Source: an uncultured Eubacterium sp.
Lineage (GTDB): Bacteria > Bacillota > Clostridia > Lachnospirales > Lachnospiraceae
Direction of reading: 5' to 3'
NCBI GenBank assembly: GCA_949959185.1
Contig: CATLIX010000034.1
Coordinates: 1 to 37,134 of the forward strand
Length of the DNA: 37,134 nt
Part shown: piece after piece, positions 8,723 through 29,242 of the stretch
How positions within the stretch are numbered: position 1 is the stretch's first letter
Layout of the letters: each line of letters starts with the position of its first letter
Notes under the pieces: model-generated
The model's input: the letters and a program-made list of their open reading frames with translations, nothing else
Told to the model about the DNA's origin: nothing
Databases searched by the model: none
Made by a program: the position numbers and the translations under genes

Positions 8723-8936
8723 CAATATACATCCTGAATTGAGTATATATTATAATGGCTCATTTGTTCTTGAAGAGTTGAAGAAAATGGATAATCAGAC
8801 AATTATGGATTTGTATCAGAATGTAAAAGTTAAAAACGAAATGTCTTTTCCAACTTTTATGTTATGTCTTGATTGGCTATATTTAATTGAAGTGGCTAAA
8901 ATGAATGAAAGGGGGTATATTCAATTATGTTTATAA
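8709..8936 (+). CDS. ABC-3C middle component (small MC6-like protein)
   Basis: This 75-residue protein begins MLLPDNIHPELSIYYNG and ends SFPTFMLCLDWLYLIEVAKM...GYIQLCL. That is the pattern of the small middle components (MC6 type) placed between effector and SMC-like ATPase in ABC-3C systems: an LLP..HIP/HPE opening, then a winged-helix-like C-terminal half. The role is presumably to bridge effector and ATPase. ATG 8709 has GGAGGG at 8695-8700 and overlaps the SMEK gene; an earlier in-frame start at 8655 lies inside that gene and lacks a ribosome site. The end overlaps the ATPase start by 10 bp, so all three proteins are probably made in fixed ratio. Confidence 0.72.
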   Translation: MLLPDNIHPELSIYYNGSFVLEELKKMDNQTIMDLYQNVKVKNEMSFPTFMLCLDWLYLIEVAKMNERGYIQLCL

Positions 8937-10657
8937 AAAAACTTATCATTTCAAGTTCGTCTGAGATTATTCGGGAGATAGACTTTTGCTCCGGACTAAA
9001 TTTAATTATTGATGATACCCCGGTTGGTGATACTAAATCAACGGGAAATAACGTTGGAAAAACAACGGTCTTAAAATTGGTTGATTTTTGCCTGGGGGCG
9101 AAAGGAAGTATAATTTATACAGATACAGAGAATAAGAAAGAGACTTATGATGTTGTGAAAAATTTTCTGGTTGATAAGAAAATAGAAATTAAACTTATTT
9201 TAACTGAAAACTTAAATGATTCAAAGGCAAAACAATTAGTAATTGAGAGGAATTTTTTGCAGCGAAAAAAGGCTGTTAGAAAGATTAATGGCAAAACTGT
9301 TCCGGATAAAGATTTTGAAGACGAACTGGAAAAAAATATAATGCCAGATAAAGATGTCGAAAAACCTACTTTCAGACAAATTATATCTCATAATATCCGC
9401 TATAAAGATGATAGCATAAATAATACCTTAAAAACATTGGATAAATTTACTTCGGATGTAGAATATGAAACATTATATTTATATTTGCTGGGATGTACTT
9501 TTAATGAAGGAGCAAAAAAGCAGGCACTGGTTACTAAAATCAATCAGGAAAATACATTTAGAGAACGTTTAGAGAAAAAGCAAACAAAAACAACTTATGA
9601 AATAGCATTAGATTTGGTTGATGATGAAATTGATATTCTTAATAAAAAAAAGGCATCCTTTAATTTAAATGAAACATTAGAAGAAGATTTGGAGCAACTT
9701 AATATTGTTAAATATAATATTAATAGAACAAGTGCATTAATCAGTAAACTCGAAATCCGTAAGAATTTGATAGAAGAATCTCAGAGAGATTTAGAACAGA
9801 GTATTTCGAATATTGATTTGCAACAATTAAGATTGTTATATGAAGAAGTGACGAAAAACATTTCCGGTGTCCAAAAAACATTTGAGGATTTAGTCGCTTT
9901 TCACAATAATATGGTAATAGAAAAGATAAAGTATATTTCTAAGGATTTGCCTGAATTAATACGGAAGCTGAAAGATTCACAGGAGGAATTATCTCTGTTA
10001 TTAAAGAAAGAAAAAGAATTGACAGATGAAGTTGCCAAAGGAGATTCTTTTGAAAAATTAGAAAAAATTATTTTTGAATTGAATGAGAAATATAGAATTA
10101 AAGGTGAGTATGAAAGCATAATTTCTCAATTAAATGAAGTTGAAGAAAATATCAATACACTTAATGAGCAAATTGATGATATAGATAATTATCTTTTTTC
10201 AGGAGATTTTGAAATTCTGTTAAAGGAACAGGTTAAAAAGTTTAATAAAATATTTTCTAATATTTCACAGGAATTATATGGAGAAAAATATGCACTTACG
10301 TTTAAAAAAGAAACAAACAAGAAGGAACAGCAATTTTATAAATTTAATGCCTTTAATGCTAATATGAGTTCTGGTAAAAAACAGGGAGAAATTTTATGTT
10401 TTGATTTGGCATATTTATTGTTTGCTGATAAGGAACAACTTCCGTGTTTACATTTTTTACTCAATGATAAGAAAGAACTTATGCATGATAATCAATTAAT
10501 TAAGGTTGCAGAATTTGTACAAAATAAAAATATTCAGTTAGTAATTTCTATATTAAAAGATAAATTACCAGTGGCTGTACTGGATAAAGCACATATTGCA
10601 ATAGAACTTTCGCAGCAGGAAAAATTATTCAGAATTGAAAATAGTCAGAGCTTTTGA
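8927..10657 (+). CDS. DUF2326 SMC-like ATPase of the ABC-3C system
   Basis: This 576-residue cytoplasmic ATPase opens with an SMC-type head: strand MFIKKLIISS, the Walker A GNNVGKTT at residues 40-47, then DFCLGAKG. A long coiled coil (about 200-445) follows. The C-terminal head half has MSSGKKQGEILCFDLAY (signature-like) and CLHFLLNDKKELMHDNQ in the Walker B position. There an Asp precedes KKE where typical ABC ATPases have D-E, as is usual for DUF2326 proteins. In ABC-3C systems this subunit is thought to sense invading DNA or its replication and license the effector. Length fits the family. The start overlaps the middle component. The gene is strongly AT-rich with AAA, AAT and TTA codons dominating. 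Confidence 0.8.
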   Translation: MFIKKLIISSSSEIIREIDFCSGLNLIIDDTPVGDTKSTGNNVGKTTVLKLVDFCLGAKGSIIYTDTENKKETYDVVKNFLVDKKIEIKLILTENLNDSKAKQLVIERNFLQRKKAVRKINGKTVPDKDFEDELEKNIMPDKDVEKPTFRQIISHNIRYKDDSINNTLKTLDKFTSDVEYETLYLYLLGCTFNEGAKKQALVTKINQENTFRERLEKKQTKTTYEIALDLVDDEIDILNKKKASFNLNETLEEDLEQLNIVKYNINRTSALISKLEIRKNLIEESQRDLEQSISNIDLQQLRLLYEEVTKNISGVQKTFEDLVAFHNNMVIEKIKYISKDLPELIRKLKDSQEELSLLLKKEKELTDEVAKGDSFEKLEKIIFELNEKYRIKGEYESIISQLNEVEENINTLNEQIDDIDNYLFSGDFEILLKEQVKKFNKIFSNISQELYGEKYALTFKKETNKKEQQFYKFNAFNANMSSGKKQGEILCFDLAYLLFADKEQLPCLHFLLNDKKELMHDNQLIKVAEFVQNKNIQLVISILKDKLPVAVLDKAHIAIELSQQEKLFRIENSQSF

Positions 10658-13693: not shown

Positions 13694-13740
13694 ACATATT
13701 ATAAGCTATAAAAACAGAAAAATGTTTGGAGGAAAGCCTT

Positions 13741-15012
13741 ATGATATTAAATTATAAATTTCAAAATGTTACGTCATTCCGGAAATGTGCAGAATTTTCC
13801 ATGGCAGCTCCGAAAACAAAGGTGAAAAACAGATTTCCGGATCACTATGTGTCTGACGGGCAGGGGTGCGATGTCTTAAAGACAGCGGTGATTGTGGGAG
13901 AAAATGCCGGAGGAAAATCTAATTTTGTGGAAAGTCTGGATTATCTGAAATACTTTTTCAGGGAAAATGAAAAGGTAAGGGCGTACCGAAATATGATTTA
14001 CGTTGATAATATTATGGATAAGTGTCTGAAAAATGCCGATGCGTGTCAGACCTTTGAACTAGAAGTGTGGCTGAATCAGGAAGCCTTTTATCTGTATCAT
14101 CTGGAACTGGATATGGCCGGGATTGTGAAGGAAGAATTAAAATTTAAAGAACAATTCAGACACAGGTATAAATCGGTTTTGAATGTAATACGAAAGAATT
14201 TTGATCTGGAATGTGAAAAAGAAGGTTATGAATGCCTGGGAATGAGTCAGTGTGAAACCAGTGCGGAAGTAGAATATAACCTGAATGTTCCAGGATTTGA
14301 ACCGGAAATGGAAGTATTTCTTCAAAAAACAACAGGAAACCAGATGCATACAGGTCTGTACATTACGAAACTGGCAATTCTTGGAAACGAACATGCAGTG
14401 AAATTTACTGAGTGGATGAAAAACAGCCTCTGTCCGGAGACAAATACGATTAATTATGATTTGTATAAATCCATGCGAAATGAGGAAGCAGATTTTCGGA
14501 TTCTCCATGATTCCAGGTTTCTGGAGATTTTCCGGATGATTGACAGCAGTATTGATTCCATTAAACTGGACAAAGAACATCCTTTTACGAAATCTGTAAT
14601 TGTAAGAACGAAAAAGGATGGAAGCAGATTTTCCAGAGAGCTTGGAAAAGATTCCAGCGGGGTAAGAGAGTTTTTTGCCTGGGCCGTTCAGATTTTTAAA
14701 GTAGTATATGAAAATAAGATTATATTTGCTGATGAGATGGACCGTGTGCTGAATCCAGTATTGTCCGACCGGGTAATCGCATTTATCAATGGAAAACAGC
14801 ATTACGGGCAGTTTATTTTTACTACTCATAATGTATTGCATCTGGATTTGAAGAATTTTATGAAAGAACAGATTTATTTTATTACAAAAGACGTGGAATG
14901 TCTGGAATCAGAGCTGTATTCTCTGGCGGATTTTCCGGATGTGCGGTATGAGACCACAAAAATATATGAATTTTATATGAAAGGGATTTTAGGGGGAACT
15001 GCTGTTGAGTAG
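13741..15012 (+). CDS. RloA-like AAA-family ATPase (defence)
   Basis: This 423-residue ATP-binding protein is of the AAA_15/21 (OLD-like) kind. Opening strand MILNYKFQNVTSFRKCAEFSM leads to Walker A GENAGGKSN (from residue 53). KDSSGVREFFAWA lies in the signature region, KIIFADEMDRVLNP is Walker B, and FIFTTHNVLHLDL carries the switch His. It is followed immediately by an RloB-like Toprim protein. Such ATPase/RloB pairs occur in restriction-linked loci and in abortive-infection systems of the AbiL type, where both proteins are needed. ATG 13741 has GGAGGAA at 13728-13734. It has its own promoter (13665-13693). The stop overlaps the next gene by 8 bp. Involvement in phage defence is inferred from the pair. 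Confidence 0.75.
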   Translation: MILNYKFQNVTSFRKCAEFSMAAPKTKVKNRFPDHYVSDGQGCDVLKTAVIVGENAGGKSNFVESLDYLKYFFRENEKVRAYRNMIYVDNIMDKCLKNADACQTFELEVWLNQEAFYLYHLELDMAGIVKEELKFKEQFRHRYKSVLNVIRKNFDLECEKEGYECLGMSQCETSAEVEYNLNVPGFEPEMEVFLQKTTGNQMHTGLYITKLAILGNEHAVKFTEWMKNSLCPETNTINYDLYKSMRNEEADFRILHDSRFLEIFRMIDSSIDSIKLDKEHPFTKSVIVRTKKDGSRFSRELGKDSSGVREFFAWAVQIFKVVYENKIIFADEMDRVLNPVLSDRVIAFINGKQHYGQFIFTTHNVLHLDLKNFMKEQIYFITKDVECLESELYSLADFPDVRYETTKIYEFYMKGILGGTAVE

Positions 15013-15655
15013 AAAAGTGCGGGAGATAAAAAAGAATTTTAAAGTGTTCTGCGAAGGGGATACAGAATATCATTATGTGGATGAAATGCGGCGGCAGCTG
15101 AAACTTTCCATTACGTTAAAACCGGTAAATATGAAGGGCGGAGGCTACAGCAGTTTTTTGGACAGTCTGAAAACAGACAGCAATACGAATTGTCTGGCGA
15201 AATTTATTATTATTGACGGAGACCGGGCAGTCAGTGAAAGCGGAGAGAAAGCAAAACTGCGGGAACTTGTGGAATATTGCATTCTGCAAAACGACAGTGG
15301 CAGGACACCGCATGTTCTTATTGTGAATGATCCTGATTTTGAATATGTGGGCTGCCTTCATACGCCAGAATACAGAGGGCAGAATACGGAGCAGTATATT
15401 ACCAAAATCATGGGATATAAAGATATGGATGATTTTAAAGGAGATACGAAGATATACCAGGTACTTAACAGCAATGGAAATTCCAGTCAGCTTATGATGA
15501 AAAGATTAAAACCTGAAGACTGCTTTGTGATAAACCATTACACAGTCAGCAGAAGCCAGTTTGAAATTAAGATAAAAACCATATACGACTGGGAAAAACT
15601 GGGCTGGAAAAGTTCTAATATCCACGAATTTTTCCAACTCATCCACGCATTCTGA
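15005..15655 (+). CDS. RloB-like Toprim-domain protein (defence)
   Basis: The 216-residue product has the RloB pattern. FCEGDTEYHYV (residues 15-25) carries the Toprim Glu. KFIIIDGDRA (Asp71 and Asp73) is the D-x-D motif. IVNDPDFEYVGCLH matches the family's S/N-x-P-x-F-E block. The Toprim fold suggests a metal-dependent nuclease activated by the upstream ATPase. The start is a TTG at 15005, supported by AGGGGGA at 14991-14997 and by coupling to the overlapping ATPase gene. No nearby restriction-modification genes are present, so this would be a stand-alone two-gene system. The family name is secure; the nuclease activity is inferred. Confidence 0.78.
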   Translation: MSRKVREIKKNFKVFCEGDTEYHYVDEMRRQLKLSITLKPVNMKGGGYSSFLDSLKTDSNTNCLAKFIIIDGDRAVSESGEKAKLRELVEYCILQNDSGRTPHVLIVNDPDFEYVGCLHTPEYRGQNTEQYITKIMGYKDMDDFKGDTKIYQVLNSNGNSSQLMMKRLKPEDCFVINHYTVSRSQFEIKIKTIYDWEKLGWKSSNIHEFFQLIHAF

Positions 15656-22497: not shown

Positions 22498-24750
22498 ATG
22501 GTTTTACAAAAAAGAATGGCGCTTTTAACACTTGCCCTTTTAGGGATACTTTGCCTTGGGGGATGTGGAAGGAAGGAAAATGAAAAAATCACTTCCATAG
22601 AACAGCTCAACAATCCGGCCTGTACGATTGGCGTTCCGGAAGGCGGGGCAGGTATGTATATGGCGGAAAAATATCTGCCGGAGGCGGAGCATAAAACATT
22701 TTCCGGCAACACTTCGGGGTATCTTGCCATTTCCCAGGGAAAACTGGACGGGTTTGTTTATGACCGGGTAATGATGGAATTTGCGATTGCCAGCGGTCTT
22801 GAGAATGTGGAGATTTTAGAGGAAAATCTGGGAGAAAGTATGGATGTGGCTGTGGGAATTTCACCCAAAAGCCAGGTTGACAATTTAAAGGATAAAGTGA
22901 ACCGGTTTCTGTCGGAAGCAAGAGCCGAGGGAACGCTGGATGATATGTATGACCGCTGGGTAAGCAGGGCGGAGGGAACCATGCCCAAAATACAGGCGTC
23001 ACAGACGCCGGACTGTAAGCTTAGGGTGGGAACCACAGGGACGGTTGAGCCTTTCAGCTACTATGAGGGGACGACTCTCACCGGATATGATGTGGAGCTG
23101 GTTTACCGTTTTGGAGCGTGGCTGAATGCGGAAGTGGAAATTAAGATTTACGACTATGATGGAATTATTGCCGCGGCCGAGGCCGGCGATATTGACTGTA
23201 TTATGGCGAATTTAAATGCCACCGAGGAAAGACGCAGGCATATCGAATTTTCCGATTGTGTTTATCCTTCGGTGACTGCCGTTATGGTAAGGTCAAAACA
23301 GAAAGCCAGCACGGAGAAAAAATACGAGACGCTTTCGGATTTTGCCGGAGCAAGGTTTGCAGCGTTAAGCGGAGGGGTTTACGATAAACTGTTACAGGAA
23401 GTAATTGCGGATGCAAAAGACTTTTCCTACTACAATTCTGTTCCCGATATTGTCGCAGCCCTTAAGGCAGGCCGTGTGGACGCGGGGGCGTTGGATGAAC
23501 CGCTGGCACAGCTTGCGGCGGCAAAAAATGAAGGCCTGAAAATTTTTGAAGAACCTGTCGTGCGGGATAAATATGGATATGCTTTTCCCAAGGGAAGCCC
23601 TTTGCGGGAACAGTTTAATGAAGTTATTGCAAAGTTTAAAGAGGACGGAACAATCGAATCCTTAAAGGAAAAATGGCTTGGGGCGGATGATGGCATAAAG
23701 GTATTAATGGAGCAGGACTGGCCGGGGGATAAGGGAACCATCCGGTACTATTATGATGGCACCCATGAGCCTATGACTTATCTTGGAAGCGGCGGCGAAC
23801 CTTTAGGGCTTGAGATAGATCTGCTGCTTTTGATTGCACGTGAACTGGATAGGAAGGTGGAGATGACAACATGTGAATTTGCTTCGCTGATAACCGCCCT
23901 TGAAAGCGGGAAGGCGGATGTGGTCAGCGGAAGCCTTTCCATCACGGAAGAAAGAGCGAAGCGGGTAGATTTTGCAGATACTCATTATGACTCGGCTATG
24001 GTACTTCTGGTGTGTGATCTGGATGGGGAATTGCAGGAAAGAGGTTTCCGGGCAAGTCTTGAGGATAGCTTTCAAAGCACTTTTGTAGTGGAGGGGCGCT
24101 GGCGGCTGATTTTGCGGGGGCTTGGCGTCACCATACTGATTTCTGTCTTTTCAGGATTTTTTGGCCTGTGCCTTGGCTTTGGAATATGTATGCTGCGCCG
24201 GATCAGTTGTAAGCCGACTCAGTGGTTCGGAGCGGTCTTTGTCCGTGTGATTCAGGGAACCCCTATCGTAGTCTTTCTGATGATTTTATACTATGGAATT
24301 TTTGGTTCGGCGGATATTTCTGAAATTCTGGTTGCGATTATTGGATTTTCCATTAATTTTGCGGCCTATTCATCAGAGATGATACGGACAGGAATAGAAA
24401 CTGTGGATAAGGGGCAAAGCGAGGCAGCCCTTGCTATGGGCTATACGAAAGGCCAGACATTTTTTAAGATTGTATTGCCCCAGGCGGCCGGAAATTTTAT
24501 TCCTGTGTTGAAAGGCGAATTTATTTCCATGGTAAAAATGACGTCAGTAGTAGGATATATTGCTGTACAGGATCTGACAAAAGTATCTGACATTATACGC
24601 TCGCGTACCATGGAGGCGTTCTTTCCACTGATAATGACAGCAGTAATTTATTTTGTGATTGCCAATATGATGACGGCAGCTCTCTCAGTTGCAGAGAGGA
24701 AAGTTGCACCGAAACGGAAGAAACGCAGTTTAAAGGGGGTGCGCATGTGA
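22498..24750 (+). CDS. Fused amino-acid ABC transporter: substrate-binding domains plus permease
   Basis: This 750-residue polar-amino-acid ABC transporter has a lipoprotein signal peptide (lipobox LGGC, Cys23). Next comes a half substrate-binding domain (about 30-165: its second lobe and closing helix), then a complete type-3 domain (172-394) with [11 protein letters not shown] and [14 protein letters not shown] first-lobe-only domain (412-507) with [12 protein letters not shown] and [13 protein letters not shown] follows, and last a GlnP/HisM-type permease (about 535-735) with [22 protein letters not shown] as the ATPase-coupling loop. The two half domains could complete one another. The ATPase gene starts inside the last codon (GTGATG). 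Substrate is an amino acid, not further defined. It begins a five-gene unit. Confidence 0.88.
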
Positions 24751-25892
24751 TGGCAGAAAAGCATGAAATCGGGGACGTCTGTGCCGGTGGAAGTATGAAC
24801 ACGAGTATAATATCTATCCGGCATCTGTGTAAGGAATATTTAAACGTAACCCCCTTAAAGGATATAAGCGCGGAGATTAAAAAAGGAGAGGTGATTTCCA
24901 TTATAGGCCCGTCAGGCACAGGAAAGTCAACCCTGCTTCGATGTATCAATCTTCTGGAGACGCCCACAAAAGGCGAGATTGTGGTAGACGGTGTGGTAAC
25001 AACGGACAGGAAATGTAAGGTAAATCTGGTGAGGCGGAAGATGGGAATGGTATTTCAGTCCTTCAACCTGTTTGCACACAAGACCATTATAGAAAATATC
25101 ATGATGGGGCAGGTGGATCTTCTTGGCAGAAGCCGGCAGGAGGCTTATGATAAAGGGATGGAACTGCTGCGTAACATAGGGCTTGCAGACAAGGCTTTTT
25201 CTTATCCGGATGAACTTTCAGGAGGACAGAAGCAGCGTGCGGCTATTGCAAGGACGGTGGCCATGGAACCGGAAATTATTCTTTTTGACGAGCCGACTTC
25301 CGCCCTGGATCCCACTATGGTGGGGGAAGTTCTTTCGGTTATCCGCAGGCTGGCAGAGCAGGGAATGACCATGATGATCGTGACGCATGAAATGAAGTTT
25401 GCCCGGGATGTATCCACCCGGATATTTTATATGGATCAGGGCGAAATCTATGAGGACGGAACGCCGGAACAGATTTTTGAGCATCCAAAGAGGGAGAGAA
25501 CCAGGATATTTATCCGGCAGCTTAAGGTGCTCCATGTGGAAAAAATCTCACGTGATTTTGATTTTCCGGCCTTTATGACACGTCTTGAGGAGTTCGGACG
25601 TAAGCAGCAGTTTTCACAGAGACAGATTTACGCCATGCAGCTTGTTGTGGAGGAAGTGCTGATGCAAAAACTTCTGCCTGCGGCAGGGGAAGCGGAGGAA
25701 AGGGATCTTTCTCTGGATGTGGAATACAGCGAGAGGGAAAATCTGGCGCAGATGCGATTTTCCTATTATGGGCCTTCCTTTCATCCTTTTGGGGATGAAG
25801 AAGATTTGTCCGGCAGGATGGTAAAAGGAATGTCTAAAAAGATGGAGCATACGTTTGTGGATGGAAGGAATCAATTTATTATCAGTATATAG
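24750..25892 (+). CDS. GlnQ-like ABC ATPase with an extra GHKL-like C-terminal domain
   Basis: Residues about 16-255 are a complete polar-amino-acid transporter ATPase: Walker [23 protein letters not shown], signature [14 protein letters not shown], Walker [14 protein letters not shown] and [10 protein letters not shown]. Such proteins normally end there, at about 245 residues. This one continues for about 120 residues (from [11 protein letters not shown]) with [19 protein letters not shown] and [11 protein letters not shown]. These resemble the N-box helix and last strand of RsbW-type ATP-binding domains, and match the N-termini of the two symporters downstream. The N-box Asn is absent. Start: ATG 24750 or GTG 24747 after AAAGGGGGTG; ATG 24795 after GGTGGAAG is also possible. 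It powers the upstream permease. Confidence 0.85.
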
Positions 25893-25929
25893 ATTAAGAA
25901 AGTTTGATGGCATTGCCATGCTTTGTTTT

Positions 25930-25969
25930 GCGTACAGAAAGCAGATGCAAGGATAAAACAGCGTACAGA
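25930..25969. promoter_or_regulatory. Direct repeat in the leader of the first symporter gene
   Basis: GCGTACAGA occurs at 25930-25938 and again at 25961-25969, 31 bp apart (about three helical turns). An outer inverted pair TTAAGAAA (25894-25901) and TTTCTTAA (25973-25980) frames them. This 117-bp gap separates the ATPase gene from the symporter gene. A regulator operator or a small structured leader is possible. Confidence 0.3.
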
Positions 25970-26009
25970 GAGTTTCTTAAAAAATGCTTAATTGGAAATA
26001 AGAGAAAAA

Positions 26010-27596
26010 ATGATGGAAAAGTTGAAATTAAATAATGAAAATATTGCACAGACAAGCAGCCTTGCAGAAAAGACACTTGGAGAATGGGGCGTTGACGCCA
26101 GAAATATTATCCAAATCCGGCTTGCAGTGGAGGAAACGCTGTTAAAGTACCAGGAGGCTTTCGGCGTGGAGGCGGTATTTGCACAAAAATATATCAAACG
26201 TCTTAATCGGATTCGGCTGGAACTTTTCCTGCCAGGAGAAAGGTTTGATCCCTTTGATACAGGGGAGGAAGAACAGAGCCAGGTACTGCGGGGACTGCTG
26301 GCCAATATGGGGGTTGCGCCCGCGTGGCAGTACAAAAATGGAGAGAATCTTATTATATTTACTCCCAAAAAGAAGAAACGTTCTCAGATGGCTTCACTGG
26401 CACTGTCCGTAGTACTGGCATTTTTGTGCGGCGGTGTGTGCAGTTTCCTGCCGGAGAGTGTCAGGACTTTTCTTGCAAATGAGATTATCAGCCCGGTATT
26501 TAACCGTTTTATGGGGCTTTTATCAGCCATTGCAGGTCCTATGGTGTTTCTTTCCATTGTATGGGGAATATACAGCATTGGGGACATGGCGGCTATGGGC
26601 AGAATCGGAAAGAGGATGATTGGACGCTTTATGTGGATGACGATTCTTCTGACACTGCCCGTATGTGTGGTGGCCATACCATTTTTTTCTCTTAAAACCG
26701 GAGACGGGGGAAAGTTTGATTTTTCTGAATTGTTTCAAATGGTTCTGGATATTGTACCAGACAACTTTTTTACGCCCTTTACAGAAGGGAATCCCATGCA
26801 GATTATTTTTGTGTCAGTTTTAATCGGAATCGCAATGCTGATTCTGGGAAACAAAGCTACAATTGCCGCGGCCTTTGTGGAACAGTCCAATTATATGATA
26901 CAGCTTATTATGGAGGCCGTCAGTTCTTTTGTTCCAGTGTTTGTGTTCGGCAGCATTTTAAATATGATACTGGGTAACAGCTTTTCAGTATTTCTTCCTT
27001 TATATAAGGTGATTCTGGTAATGCTTATGGGAGATACTGTTCTTCTGGCAGTGTATCTTGTGCTGGTATGCAAAAGGAGGAAGGTACAGCCTGTGGTATT
27101 GCTGAAAAAGATGACGCCCACTTTTCTGATTGCATTAACCACGGCGTCTTCTTCTGCCGCATTTGGGGTGAATATGGAGTGCTGTGAAAAAGACCTTGGG
27201 ATTGACAGAAGGATCGTTAATTTTGGTATCCCTTTAGGGCAGGTTATCTTTATGCCGGGGGTTTCCGTTATGTTTCTGGCGGTGGGATTTTGTATGGCTG
27301 AAATCTATGGCGTGACGGTTTCTCCGGCATGGCTGGTTACGGCCGGTCTCATTGCTGTTGTGCTTGCGGTGGCGGCGCCTCCTGTTCCCGGCGGTGCGCT
27401 GACCTGTTATACGATTTTGTTTGCCCAGCTTAAGATTCCCATGGAGGCTGTAGCGGTCACCATTGCCCTCAATGTAATAATGGAATTTGTTACCACAGCG
27501 GTGAACCTGTTCTGTCTGCAGGCGGAACTTGTGGAACTGTCTGCCGGTCTTGATATGCTGGATGTGAGAAAACTGAGAGAGAAGAAAAATGTATGA
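26010..27596 (+). CDS. DAACS-type symporter with an N-terminal GHKL-like domain
   Basis: Residues 1-120 are soluble and hold IIQIRLAVEETLLKYQEAFG and APAWQYKNGENLIIFTPK, a domain shared with the preceding ATPase tail. Residues 126-528 form a dicarboxylate/amino-acid:cation symporter. MLILGN and LTTASSSAAFG correspond to the serine-rich hairpin 1. PLGQVIFMPG lies where canonical members have NMDGT, and PPVPGGALTCYTIL corresponds to hairpin 2. The last helix, NVIMEFVTTAVNLF, lacks the Arg that binds the acidic side chain in glutamate/aspartate carriers, so substrate or coupling ion may differ. ATG 26010 or 26013 is the likely start, with only weak ribosome-site sequence; TTG 25992 is in frame. 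The family call for the membrane part is firm. Confidence 0.85.
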   Translation: MMEKLKLNNENIAQTSSLAEKTLGEWGVDARNIIQIRLAVEETLLKYQEAFGVEAVFAQKYIKRLNRIRLELFLPGERFDPFDTGEEEQSQVLRGLLANMGVAPAWQYKNGENLIIFTPKKKKRSQMASLALSVVLAFLCGGVCSFLPESVRTFLANEIISPVFNRFMGLLSAIAGPMVFLSIVWGIYSIGDMAAMGRIGKRMIGRFMWMTILLTLPVCVVAIPFFSLKTGDGGKFDFSELFQMVLDIVPDNFFTPFTEGNPMQIIFVSVLIGIAMLILGNKATIAAAFVEQSNYMIQLIMEAVSSFVPVFVFGSILNMILGNSFSVFLPLYKVILVMLMGDTVLLAVYLVLVCKRRKVQPVVLLKKMTPTFLIALTTASSSAAFGVNMECCEKDLGIDRRIVNFGIPLGQVIFMPGVSVMFLAVGFCMAEIYGVTVSPAWLVTAGLIAVVLAVAAPPVPGGALTCYTILFAQLKIPMEAVAVTIALNVIMEFVTTAVNLFCLQAELVELSAGLDMLDVRKLREKKNV

Positions 27597-27642
27597 AATA
27601 GCTGAAAGAACCCGAACTGTCAGCAGAAGAAAAGGAGAAAAA

Positions 27643-28107
27643 ATGGAAAATGCATCAATGTTGGAATTTCATGCGGACGATATTATTTTGAAAGAAGGCG
27701 AAACTTATGAGGAAATGTACAAAATTATATCCGGTTCTGTAGCAGTTTATATCCGGTATGGGGAAAAGGAGGAACACCTGATTGGGATTTATTCCAGGTC
27801 CAGGTGTTTCGGCGAAACCAATGTGTTTTCCAGCCAGCCAGGTATTTATACGGTGGTGGCCTATGGGGATGTGCTTCTGATGCGCATTACAAAGGATTCT
27901 CTGGAAGAATTTATCAGAAGAAATCCCGGAAATGCAATTGATATCATGCAGAATATGGTACAGACCAATATGCTGATGCAGAAAAATATCGATCTGCTGC
28001 TGGACGATATTTATGAAAAGCAGGATATCAATAAGAGAAGAACAGAAGAGATGAAAGACAAGATCAGACAGTACCGCATGAACGGATTTAATCTTTTAGG
28101 AGTTTAA
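27643..28107 (+). CDS. Cyclic-nucleotide-binding-fold protein lacking a DNA-binding domain
   Basis: The 154-residue product has a CAP/CRP-type beta-roll: HADDIILKEGETYEEMYKIISGSVAVY, GIYSRSRCFGETNVFSSQPG, YTVVAYGDVLLMRI, then the helix EEFIRRNPGNAIDIMQNMV. The chain ends about 50 residues later in a charged helix (YEKQDINKRRTEEMKDKIRQ) without a helix-turn-helix. In the phosphate-binding cassette the FGE is kept, but the usual Arg-Ala after the Pro is replaced by Gly-Ile-Tyr. It may therefore bind another ligand or act as a scaffold. ATG 27643 has AAAGGAG 5 nt upstream; ATG 27589 overlaps the symporter end but lacks one. Placed between two symporter genes, it may regulate transport at the protein level. 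Confidence 0.8.
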   Translation: MENASMLEFHADDIILKEGETYEEMYKIISGSVAVYIRYGEKEEHLIGIYSRSRCFGETNVFSSQPGIYTVVAYGDVLLMRITKDSLEEFIRRNPGNAIDIMQNMVQTNMLMQKNIDLLLDDIYEKQDINKRRTEEMKDKIRQYRMNGFNLLGV

Positions 28108-28108
28108 A

Positions 28109-29242
28109 ATGCAGGATTACAACCTGACAAATCATGATATAGATGCGGCGTGTCATCAAGTAGAGATATTTTGTGAACGCGCCAATGGAGAAAAAAGAGA
28201 CATTCTCCGCACACGACTGGCTGTGGAAGAGATACTGATGAAATATCAGGAAGCTTTTGGCGCAAAGGGGACTTTTCAGTTTCAGTGCAGAAAGCGGATA
28301 AACCGTCTGCATGCCAGTTTTTCTATTCCGGGAGAAAGATTGGATGTGGTCCATACGGATGGCGGCGAAGAAAGCGCTATCTTAAAAGGCATCCTTTCAG
28401 GTATGGGAGAAATTCCCGCATGGCAGTTCAAAAACGGAGTCAATTACCTTACCTTTGTGTTAAAAAAGAAAAAATTATCTCCTGCCGTATCACTGCAGGC
28501 AGCAGTTCTTTTCGGCTTTCGGAACTTCTGGAAATGGTTCTGGGAATTGTACCGGACAATTTTTTAACTCCTTTTTTGGAGGGAAATCCTTTACAGATTA
28601 TTTTTCTTGCAGTTCTTGCAGGGATGGCAATGCTGATTCTGGGGAACAGGGCTGCGGTTGTTTCAATGTTTTTAAAACAGGCAAATGTCATTATATTACT
28701 AATCATGGAAAATATCAGTACTTTTGTCCCCGTTTTCATTTTTGGCAGTCTTCCTGAAAAAAGTTTTTCCGGTTTTTCTGATCGGTCTGACAACAGCTTC
28801 TTCTTCTGCCGCATTTTTGGAAAACAGGAAAGTGTGCGAGGAAAAGCTGGGGATTGATAAAAAAATTGTAAATATCGGCGTTCCTCTTGGACAGGTGGTA
28901 TTCATGCCGGGGTTTTCTATTTTATATTTTGTAATGGGAATTTGCATGGCGGAGATTTATGGTGTGAAGATATCCCCGGTATGGCTGATTACAGCGCTGA
29001 TCATTGCGGTAGTACTGGCTGTGGCTACACCGCCCATTCCCGGAGGCGCTCTTGCCTGCTATACGATTCTGCTTTTACAGCTTGAAATCCCTGCCCAGGC
29101 CATTGTGATTGCAGTTGCCATAAATGTGATACTGGATTTTTTTGCTACAGCAGTAGATTTGTTTTGTCTGGAGGCAGAGTTGACAGAACTGGCGGGGGAC
29201 CTTGAAATGCTGGATGTGGAGAAAATCCGGAAAACATTTTAA
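28109..29242 (+). pseudogene. Second GHKL-like/DAACS symporter, with two internal deletions
   Basis: This is a paralogue of the gene at 26010. Its N-terminal domain is intact (TRLAVEEILMKYQEAFG, IPAWQFKNGVNYLTFVLK). Near 28512 the frame jumps to LSELLEMVLGIVPDNFLTPF, skipping about 110 residues that the other copy has. Near 28755, after FVPVFIFGSL, it jumps again to LKKVFPVFLIGLTTASSSAAF, skipping about 47 residues. The rest to the stop (PLGQVVFMPG, TPPIPGGALACYTIL, DVEKIRKTF) matches. Both losses remove membrane helices and break the frame, so no transporter can be made. The first 120-odd residues could still be translated from ATG 28109 (TTAGGAG upstream), giving a free copy of the soluble domain. 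Confidence 0.85.

Follow-up and report, generated by a model that had tools for sequence, protein, structure and literature searches.

Why should an amino-acid importer and a symporter of an unrelated kind, encoded side by side, carry the same extra domain? The question is raised by a stretch of 37,134 nucleotides from an uncultured Eubacterium sp. of the Lachnospiraceae (contig CATLIX010000034.1 of assembly GCA_949959185.1), referred to here as the window, in which a compact run of five genes on the + strand encodes a fused substrate-binding protein (SBP) and permease, an ATP-binding cassette (ABC) ATPase, an SDF/DAACS-type symporter, a protein with a cyclic-nucleotide-binding domain (CNBD) and a second symporter. 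The ATPase ends, and the symporter begins, with ~125 residues that form one homologous domain, predicted to fold like the anti-sigma kinases RsbW, SpoIIAB and UsfX. The run and its domains are as follows.

22498–24750, + strand: SBP_bac_3 domains fused to a permease, amino-acid ABC importer, 750 residues (Pfam SBP_bac_3 6.7e-57, BPD_transp_1 2.1e-20)
24747–25892, + strand: GlnQ-like ABC ATPase with a C-terminal extension, 381 residues from a GTG (Pfam ABC_tran 9.2e-35)
25515–25889, + strand: degenerate GHKL, RsbW-like domain at the ATPase C terminus (AlphaFold, Foldseek, hhalign)
25992–27596, + strand: SDF/DAACS-type symporter with an N-terminal extension, 534 residues from a TTG (Pfam SDF 2.7e-63, residues 137–506)
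26013–26390, + strand: degenerate GHKL, RsbW-like domain at the symporter N terminus (AlphaFold, Foldseek, hhalign)
27589–28107, + strand: small CNBD protein (Pfam cNMP_binding 4.3e-18; no second confident Pfam domain)
28109–29242, + strand: second fused symporter, a pseudogene; extension whole, body fragmented with two internal losses (tblastn against the own genome)
28109–28486, + strand: degenerate GHKL, RsbW-like domain at the N terminus of this second symporter, 43% identical to that of the first

The frames of the ATPase, the symporter and their neighbours agree with those in the earlier note on this DNA. The ATPase may start at the ATG at 24795 in place of the GTG, and the symporter more likely starts at the ATG at 26013 than at the TTG. 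Among NCBIfam families the ATPase is GlnQ- or TcyN-like, scoring under the equivalog cut-offs of both (TcyN 295 of 406 bits, GlnQ 292.8 of 379 bits). Each extension is about 125 residues long, and follows the ABC domain in the ATPase and precedes the membrane part in the symporters. A Pfam search of the window proteins at E<=1 matched ABC_tran, SDF and cNMP_binding, and returned no match within the extensions and no HATPase family; among the NCBIfam families listed there was likewise no extension match (for the ATPase, the best 25 of 201 families).

The extensions do resemble each other. Those of the two symporters match with a BLASTP E value of 8e-35, and that of the ATPase matches the second symporter's at 9e-5, while against the first symporter's it gives E 0.47, which is no match. 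Relatives were gathered from named genomes (24 loci) and from samples of further genomes, and were aligned as symporter extensions (17 rows), ATPase extensions (18 rows) and true HATPase_c_2 domains (7 rows). Comparison of these profiles by hhalign joined the two extension alignments at 98.0% (E 1.5e-13), and joined the HATPase_c_2 alignment to the ATPase extension at 98.3% and to the symporter extension at 96.0%, whereas a STAS alignment used as control gave 0.3% and 0.2% against the two extensions. Each profile also detects the other kind of extension within the window's own genome: that of the symporter picks up the ATPase extension (25581–25874, E 1.2e-5), and that of the ATPase picks up the extension of the second symporter (28133–28456, E 8.4e-5). 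The profile comparisons thus establish a single homologous domain, which bears out the pattern that the earlier note had seen by eye in the ATPase C terminus and both symporter N termini, with the EE box and the last strand where it had placed them. Chance likeness of short motifs is ruled out by the profile comparison, the cross-detection and the fold search described next. Partial matches in L060 (295 residues, SPFH-like by eye) and L070 (698 residues, RNase R-like by eye) were taken as chance, and L131:366–1763, a weak partial match at 6e-4, was set aside.

AlphaFold models of the domain, built from narrow alignments of 13 and 23 rows, reached a predicted local distance difference test score (pLDDT) of 87.3 and a predicted template modelling score (pTM) of 0.82 for the ATPase, and 88.7 and 0.83 for the symporter. 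Both models have the identical element order strand–helix–helix–strand–strand–helix–strand–strand. When compared with the PDB by Foldseek, all 18 hits of the ATPase domain at E<=1e-3 were RsbW, SpoIIAB or UsfX (best 6m37_A, 1.2e-5), as were six of the seven hits of the symporter domain, all UsfX or RsbW (best 8ih8_C, 6.3e-5), the seventh being a histidine kinase; the RsbW-type hits had a probability of 1.00 and a query TM (template modelling) score of 0.57–0.73. The likeness to anti-sigma-type ATP-binding domains that had been suggested from the letters is therefore matched by the predicted fold, and the two modelled extensions do not differ in it.

Does the domain still work as a kinase? Residues of the ATP site were compared across 70 non-redundant domains, in which copies more than 80% alike had been collapsed (SDF from 57 to 37, ABC from 28 to 17, MATE from 8 to 7, together with nine related RsbW-like kinases), the counts excluding L027, L200 and one later-gathered set of loci. 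All nine kinases keep the Asn of the N box, the Asp of DxG and a Gly of G2. In the transporter-borne copies the N-box Asn is kept in 4/37 SDF and 1/17 ABC domains and the DxG Asp in none (0/37 and 0/17), and 36/37 and 17/17 have a gap in the G2 column. What persists is the Glu of the box (34/37 SDF, 17/17 ABC), the Gly of DxG (34/37, 16/17) and the Asn of the last strand (34/37, 16/17). Copies borne by MATE transporters are intermediate (Asn 3/7, Asp 4/7, Gly 5/7). In the window's three copies the N-box Asn position holds Gln, Lys and Lys, in line with the loss proposed earlier, to which the DxG Asp and the G2 loop can now be added. Fold and profile relate the domain to HATPase_c_2, yet it does not pass the residue tests for a catalytic kinase, and with its ATP-site residues lost it is probably a pseudokinase. 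That the former ATP pocket still takes up a nucleotide or another small ligand and so informs the transporter of the energy state, as the retained GHKL fold and the few copies with an N-box Asn might allow, is very improbable: of the 54 ABC and SDF copies, all have lost the DxG Asp and 53 have a gap at the G2 loop.

The ratio of nonsynonymous to synonymous substitution rates (dN/dS) is 0.15–0.22 for the ATPase extension against 0.04–0.09 for its ABC domain, 0.06–0.21 for the symporter extension against 0.10–0.25 for the symporter body, and 0.20–0.45 for the extension of the broken second symporter; the extensions are under purifying selection, and in homologous loci they are present and conserved.

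The same type of domain is carried by MATE transporters, which adds a third kind of fusion partner to the ABC importer and secondary symporter already recognised. In a domain tree of 70 rows, with few columns and a midpoint root, the ABC copies form one group with support 99, the SDF copies group at 92 and the kinases at 87, and the MATE copies are not quite one group; of these values only the ABC support is starred. This grouping suggests that the domain copies fall into separate lineages that go with the type of transporter. The ABC fusions reach genomes of the same phylum outside the window's class (G928, G672, G832 and G762). Whole amino-acid importers also occur as single chains of up to 1151 residues comprising binding domains, permease, ATPase and RsbW-like domain (L059:8653–11382, L068:5262–8714, L207, L208, L209 and L240).

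What, then, could a conserved pseudokinase domain do on a transporter? Partner switching is known mainly for the control of sigma factors. Here, a small STAS protein resembling RsbV or SpoIIAA would most likely dock on the extensions. Its phosphate would be removed, in response to a signal, by a SpoIIE-type PP2C and restored by an intact RsbW-like kinase, and just one of its forms, phosphorylated or not, would bind the transporter domain and so open or close transport; the device would be a partner switch with transport activity, not a sigma factor, as its output. Binding of STAS to the domain is a prediction, and we consider it rather likely that partner switching acts on transport directly. 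The earlier note had proposed one regulatory device acting directly on transport; that proposal, still an inference, gains support from STAS and SpoIIE-type PP2C genes found near fused transporters in some relatives.

The distribution of STAS proteins across genomes accords with such a role. In the family, 109/348 genomes hold a STAS protein of this type at E<=1e-10, and these include 22/22 genomes with a verified fused SDF compared with 87/326 others, some of which possibly hold a fusion themselves (Fisher 1.6e-12; 2.2e-11 for the first 20 alone). The search with the symporter domain had matched 48/348 genomes, for a selection of which neighbourhoods were fetched, so that the 20 fused-SDF genomes verified there are a minimum, to which two from elsewhere were added; that the same 348 genomes lie behind the fusion and STAS screens is concluded from their equal size and shared identifiers. 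Genomes with only unfused SDFs hold STAS in 6/27 cases (Fisher against 22/22, 7.6e-9; a hand count with fusion judged by frame length). STAS is also found in 21/23 genomes behind the loci near to the window's.

The window's own genome contains one strong STAS gene, at C5:75811–76104, and a weak second hit on contig C26, where a STAS and a HATPase_c_2 gene make up a pair that is probably SpoIIAA/SpoIIAB. Both Ser of the ISSAGLR loop, which we take to hold the STAS phosphorylation site, are invariant in six aligned STAS proteins. The cluster around the C5 gene borders a 2988-residue non-ribosomal peptide synthetase (NRPS) frame and also encodes a methyltransferase, a GH3-type enzyme and a MATE–HATPase_c_2 fusion; it further contains both a PP2C and an intact RsbW-like kinase, the latter at C5:71255–71632. 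In the window's organism the STAS, kinase and phosphatase of this cluster would likely act in trans on the transporters. Clusters with a PP2C, a GH3-type enzyme and a MATE–HATPase_c_2 fusion were seen at L081 and L082 (both on contig C5 of the own genome) and at L241, the first of these additionally having STAS, an RsbW-like kinase and an NRPS.

In some relatives the partner genes lie beside the fused transporters themselves. Genes for STAS, PP2C or HATPase_c_2 proteins were counted within 8 kb by a six-frame scan in which transporter fusions were not counted and L210, which overlaps L205, was dropped. At least one was present at 12/52 fused SDF loci and at 0/20 unfused ones (Fisher one-sided 0.013), although the 12 are not all independent, six being close relatives of the window locus. 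An earlier count from greedily called open reading frames had given 12/50 against 0/21 (Fisher 0.009); the rescan recovered L027, moved L200 from unfused to fused and added the STAS genes of L130, L136 and L238. MATE fusions have a partner gene within 8 kb at 9/13 loci. The arrangements are varied. In L059, STAS is followed by a 5TM-5TMR_LYT/SpoIIE/HATPase_c_2 protein, a fused symporter, and an importer and extension in one 910-residue chain; in L026, titled as a Spirochaetales metagenome-assembled genome, the run is STAS, SBP–permease, ATPase with extension, PP2C and symporter; in L014 and L024 it is STAS, a 1418-residue protein (in L024 an NRPS by Pfam, with condensation, AMP-binding, carrier and reductase domains), PP2C, symporter, CNBD protein and second symporter; and in L128 it is kinase, PP2C, MATE fusion, STAS and symporter. 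Further loci with such linkage are L130, L136 and L141.

Other proteins near these loci were recorded as well. L061:9322–10542, of 407 residues, adjoins a STAS gene and looks like two copies of the domain, with a weak match to the symporter-extension profile (E 0.009) and no Pfam match at E<=1e-3. Near fused transporters, STAS is also found fused to TCAD9 (L237:2078–4441) and to an APH-type phosphotransferase domain (L136:10043–11230 and L063:13823–15043).

Several observations weigh against direct control of transport by a partner switch. At the window locus itself, no STAS, PP2C or HATPase_c_2 profile match was found in six frames. A partner gene is absent within 8 kb from 40/52 fused SDF loci, and is present at only 6/31 fused SDF loci outside the window's clade and at only 7/34 ABC fusions, many loci being cut by contig ends; where STAS and PP2C genes do occur, they may serve the NRPS or a MATE transporter instead of these transporters. 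Two of the 23 genomes behind near loci lack a STAS profile match, and in a third, G969, there is only a 47-residue piece. The STAS profile was built partly from fusion-bearing genomes, so that some bias toward them is possible in the co-occurrence. In G465, another genome of the window's genus, no symporter domain was found at E<=1e-3. Sequence profiles searched against the PDB returned no RsbW, the best E value being 0.046 to an unrelated protein, and in the ATPase, selection is looser on the extension than on the ABC domain. What the genes and models show is homology, predicted fold, ATP-site loss, conservation, neighbourhood and co-occurrence; from these we infer that the domain would bind STAS, that phosphorylation state would decide binding and that binding would change transport.

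The flow of information could also be reversed. The transporter would then be a sensor whose state, such as being substrate-bound or cycling, makes its pseudokinase domain hold or release STAS, and STAS would then act on another target, for example a sigma factor, the NRPS cluster or the MATE exporter. This would fit the same gene associations, and suits the location of STAS in NRPS clusters. A poorly transporting receptor might also explain a feature of the symporters: that of the window has FMPGV at the helix 7 position of NMDGT in many SDFs, presumably a functional motif of the SDF/DAACS family, which leaves its substrate and ion coupling uncertain, and most fused SDFs likewise are without NMDG, which is kept in 7/56 readable rows (redundant rows included). 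However, unfused SDFs vary there too, with NMDG in 9/20 and a near form in five more, so its loss is no sign of a receptor. The ABC importer retains its normal Pfam domains, seven fused SDFs do keep NMDG, and the occurrence of one domain on three unrelated transporter types is simpler if transport is the output. We regard the sensor as unlikely, while taking it more seriously than the other alternatives.

A purely structural or stabilising element, acting in dimerisation or in assembly of the ABC ATPase or the symporter trimer and no longer meeting STAS, would account for the lost ATP site and for the 27/34 ABC fusions without a STAS, PP2C or HATPase_c_2 gene within 8 kb. It leaves unexplained the retention of STAS in all 22 fused-SDF genomes and the repeated operon linkage in L026, L059, L128, L130, L136 and L141, and we hold it to be quite doubtful.

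Two further parts of the run call for comment. The second symporter had been counted as a DAACS-type symporter like the first; its extension is intact, but the body lies in pieces in different frames, with family residues ~145–224 and ~324–367 missing, and it is a pseudogene. Among 12 relatives, eight have a stop-free frame of 515–539 residues, the copies in L008, L012 and L014 are broken, and that in L018 runs off the contig end; the L007 copy is likewise in pieces. Broken as it is in the window and in several relatives, the decay looks both real and repeated. The CRP-fold (CNBD) gene, which the earlier note had placed between importer and symporter, in fact lies between the two symporters, and a central role for it is not supported: it occurs at 12/24 near loci and at none of the more distant loci in the same scan, and was dropped as a core part because it was found only near close relatives.

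At L013:4515–5846 a transposase gene separates the ATPase from the symporter, and genes that recur beside the transporters encode a MIF-like protein (L021, L022) and a periplasmic binding protein, Peripla_BP_4 or similar (L021, L022, L026). Elsewhere in the window, 13726–15655 and 8927–10657 contain an AAA_21 ATPase gene followed by an RloB-like gene that scores under its Pfam threshold, which together may form a defence pair, and a gene for a DUF2326 protein.

Returning to partner switching as a control of transport, there is about an even chance that the window exemplifies a general class of transporters so controlled, in which pseudo-RsbW domains sit on ABC, SDF and MATE proteins and one diffusible STAS protein, whose state is set by a PP2C and a kinase, switches uptake and export. 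If true, this would be post-translational control of membrane transport with the target domains built into three unrelated kinds of transporter, and annotation would overlook it, since Pfam does not pick up those ABC and SDF extensions that were scanned. It would also link amino-acid-type uptake systems to NRPS clusters in the Lachnospiraceae so that, for instance, the uptake of building blocks and the export of the NRPS product are switched together.

Considering how this compares with known systems, the domain is like RsbW, SpoIIAB and UsfX (Pfam HATPase_c_2, PF13581) in predicted fold and profile homology, and in that some relatives have genes for STAS and PP2C proteins close by, but it differs in being fused to transporters, in having lost ATP-site residues, in falling below Pfam detection and in that no sigma factor is implicated. 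MATE transporters with a C-terminal HATPase_c_2 domain have the same domain type on another transporter, with a PP2C gene within 8 kb at 9/13 loci; they differ in that a Pfam scan of three such proteins recognised the domain in each and that some keep ATP-site residues (N-box Asn in 3/7). C-terminal regulatory domains of ABC importers, as in the trans-inhibition of MetN, are likewise additions to the ATPase of an amino-acid importer, although they have another fold and bind substrate, not a protein switch. Among the matches listed from the open-licence PMC literature, no transporter fused to an RsbW/HATPase_c_2 domain was described, and the main text of a review of transporter modulation (PMC10710835) is without the terms STAS, anti-sigma, partner, GHKL, SpoII and glutamate. 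SypA and SypE of Vibrio fischeri are alike in forming a proposed partner switch with a non-canonical output, and differ in that the excerpted text of that paper mentions no transporter fusion (PMC10120452). In MlaFB, according to the excerpted source, the STAS protein MlaB binds the ABC ATPase MlaF at the ATPase domain itself, a post-translational action of STAS on an ABC ATPase such as is proposed for the window's importer; that MlaB is phosphorylated is put forward there as a hypothesis, with a phosphomimetic that weakened MlaF binding, and the excerpt mentions no RsbW-like domain (PMC7367683). SulP/SLC26 transporters, as excerpted in PMC8256260, likewise have a partner-switch domain fused to the transporter, but carry the STAS side of the switch where the window's transporters carry the kinase side. 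Of the described cases covered, these last two, MlaB bound to MlaF and SulP with its STAS domain, come closest (PMC7367683, PMC8256260).

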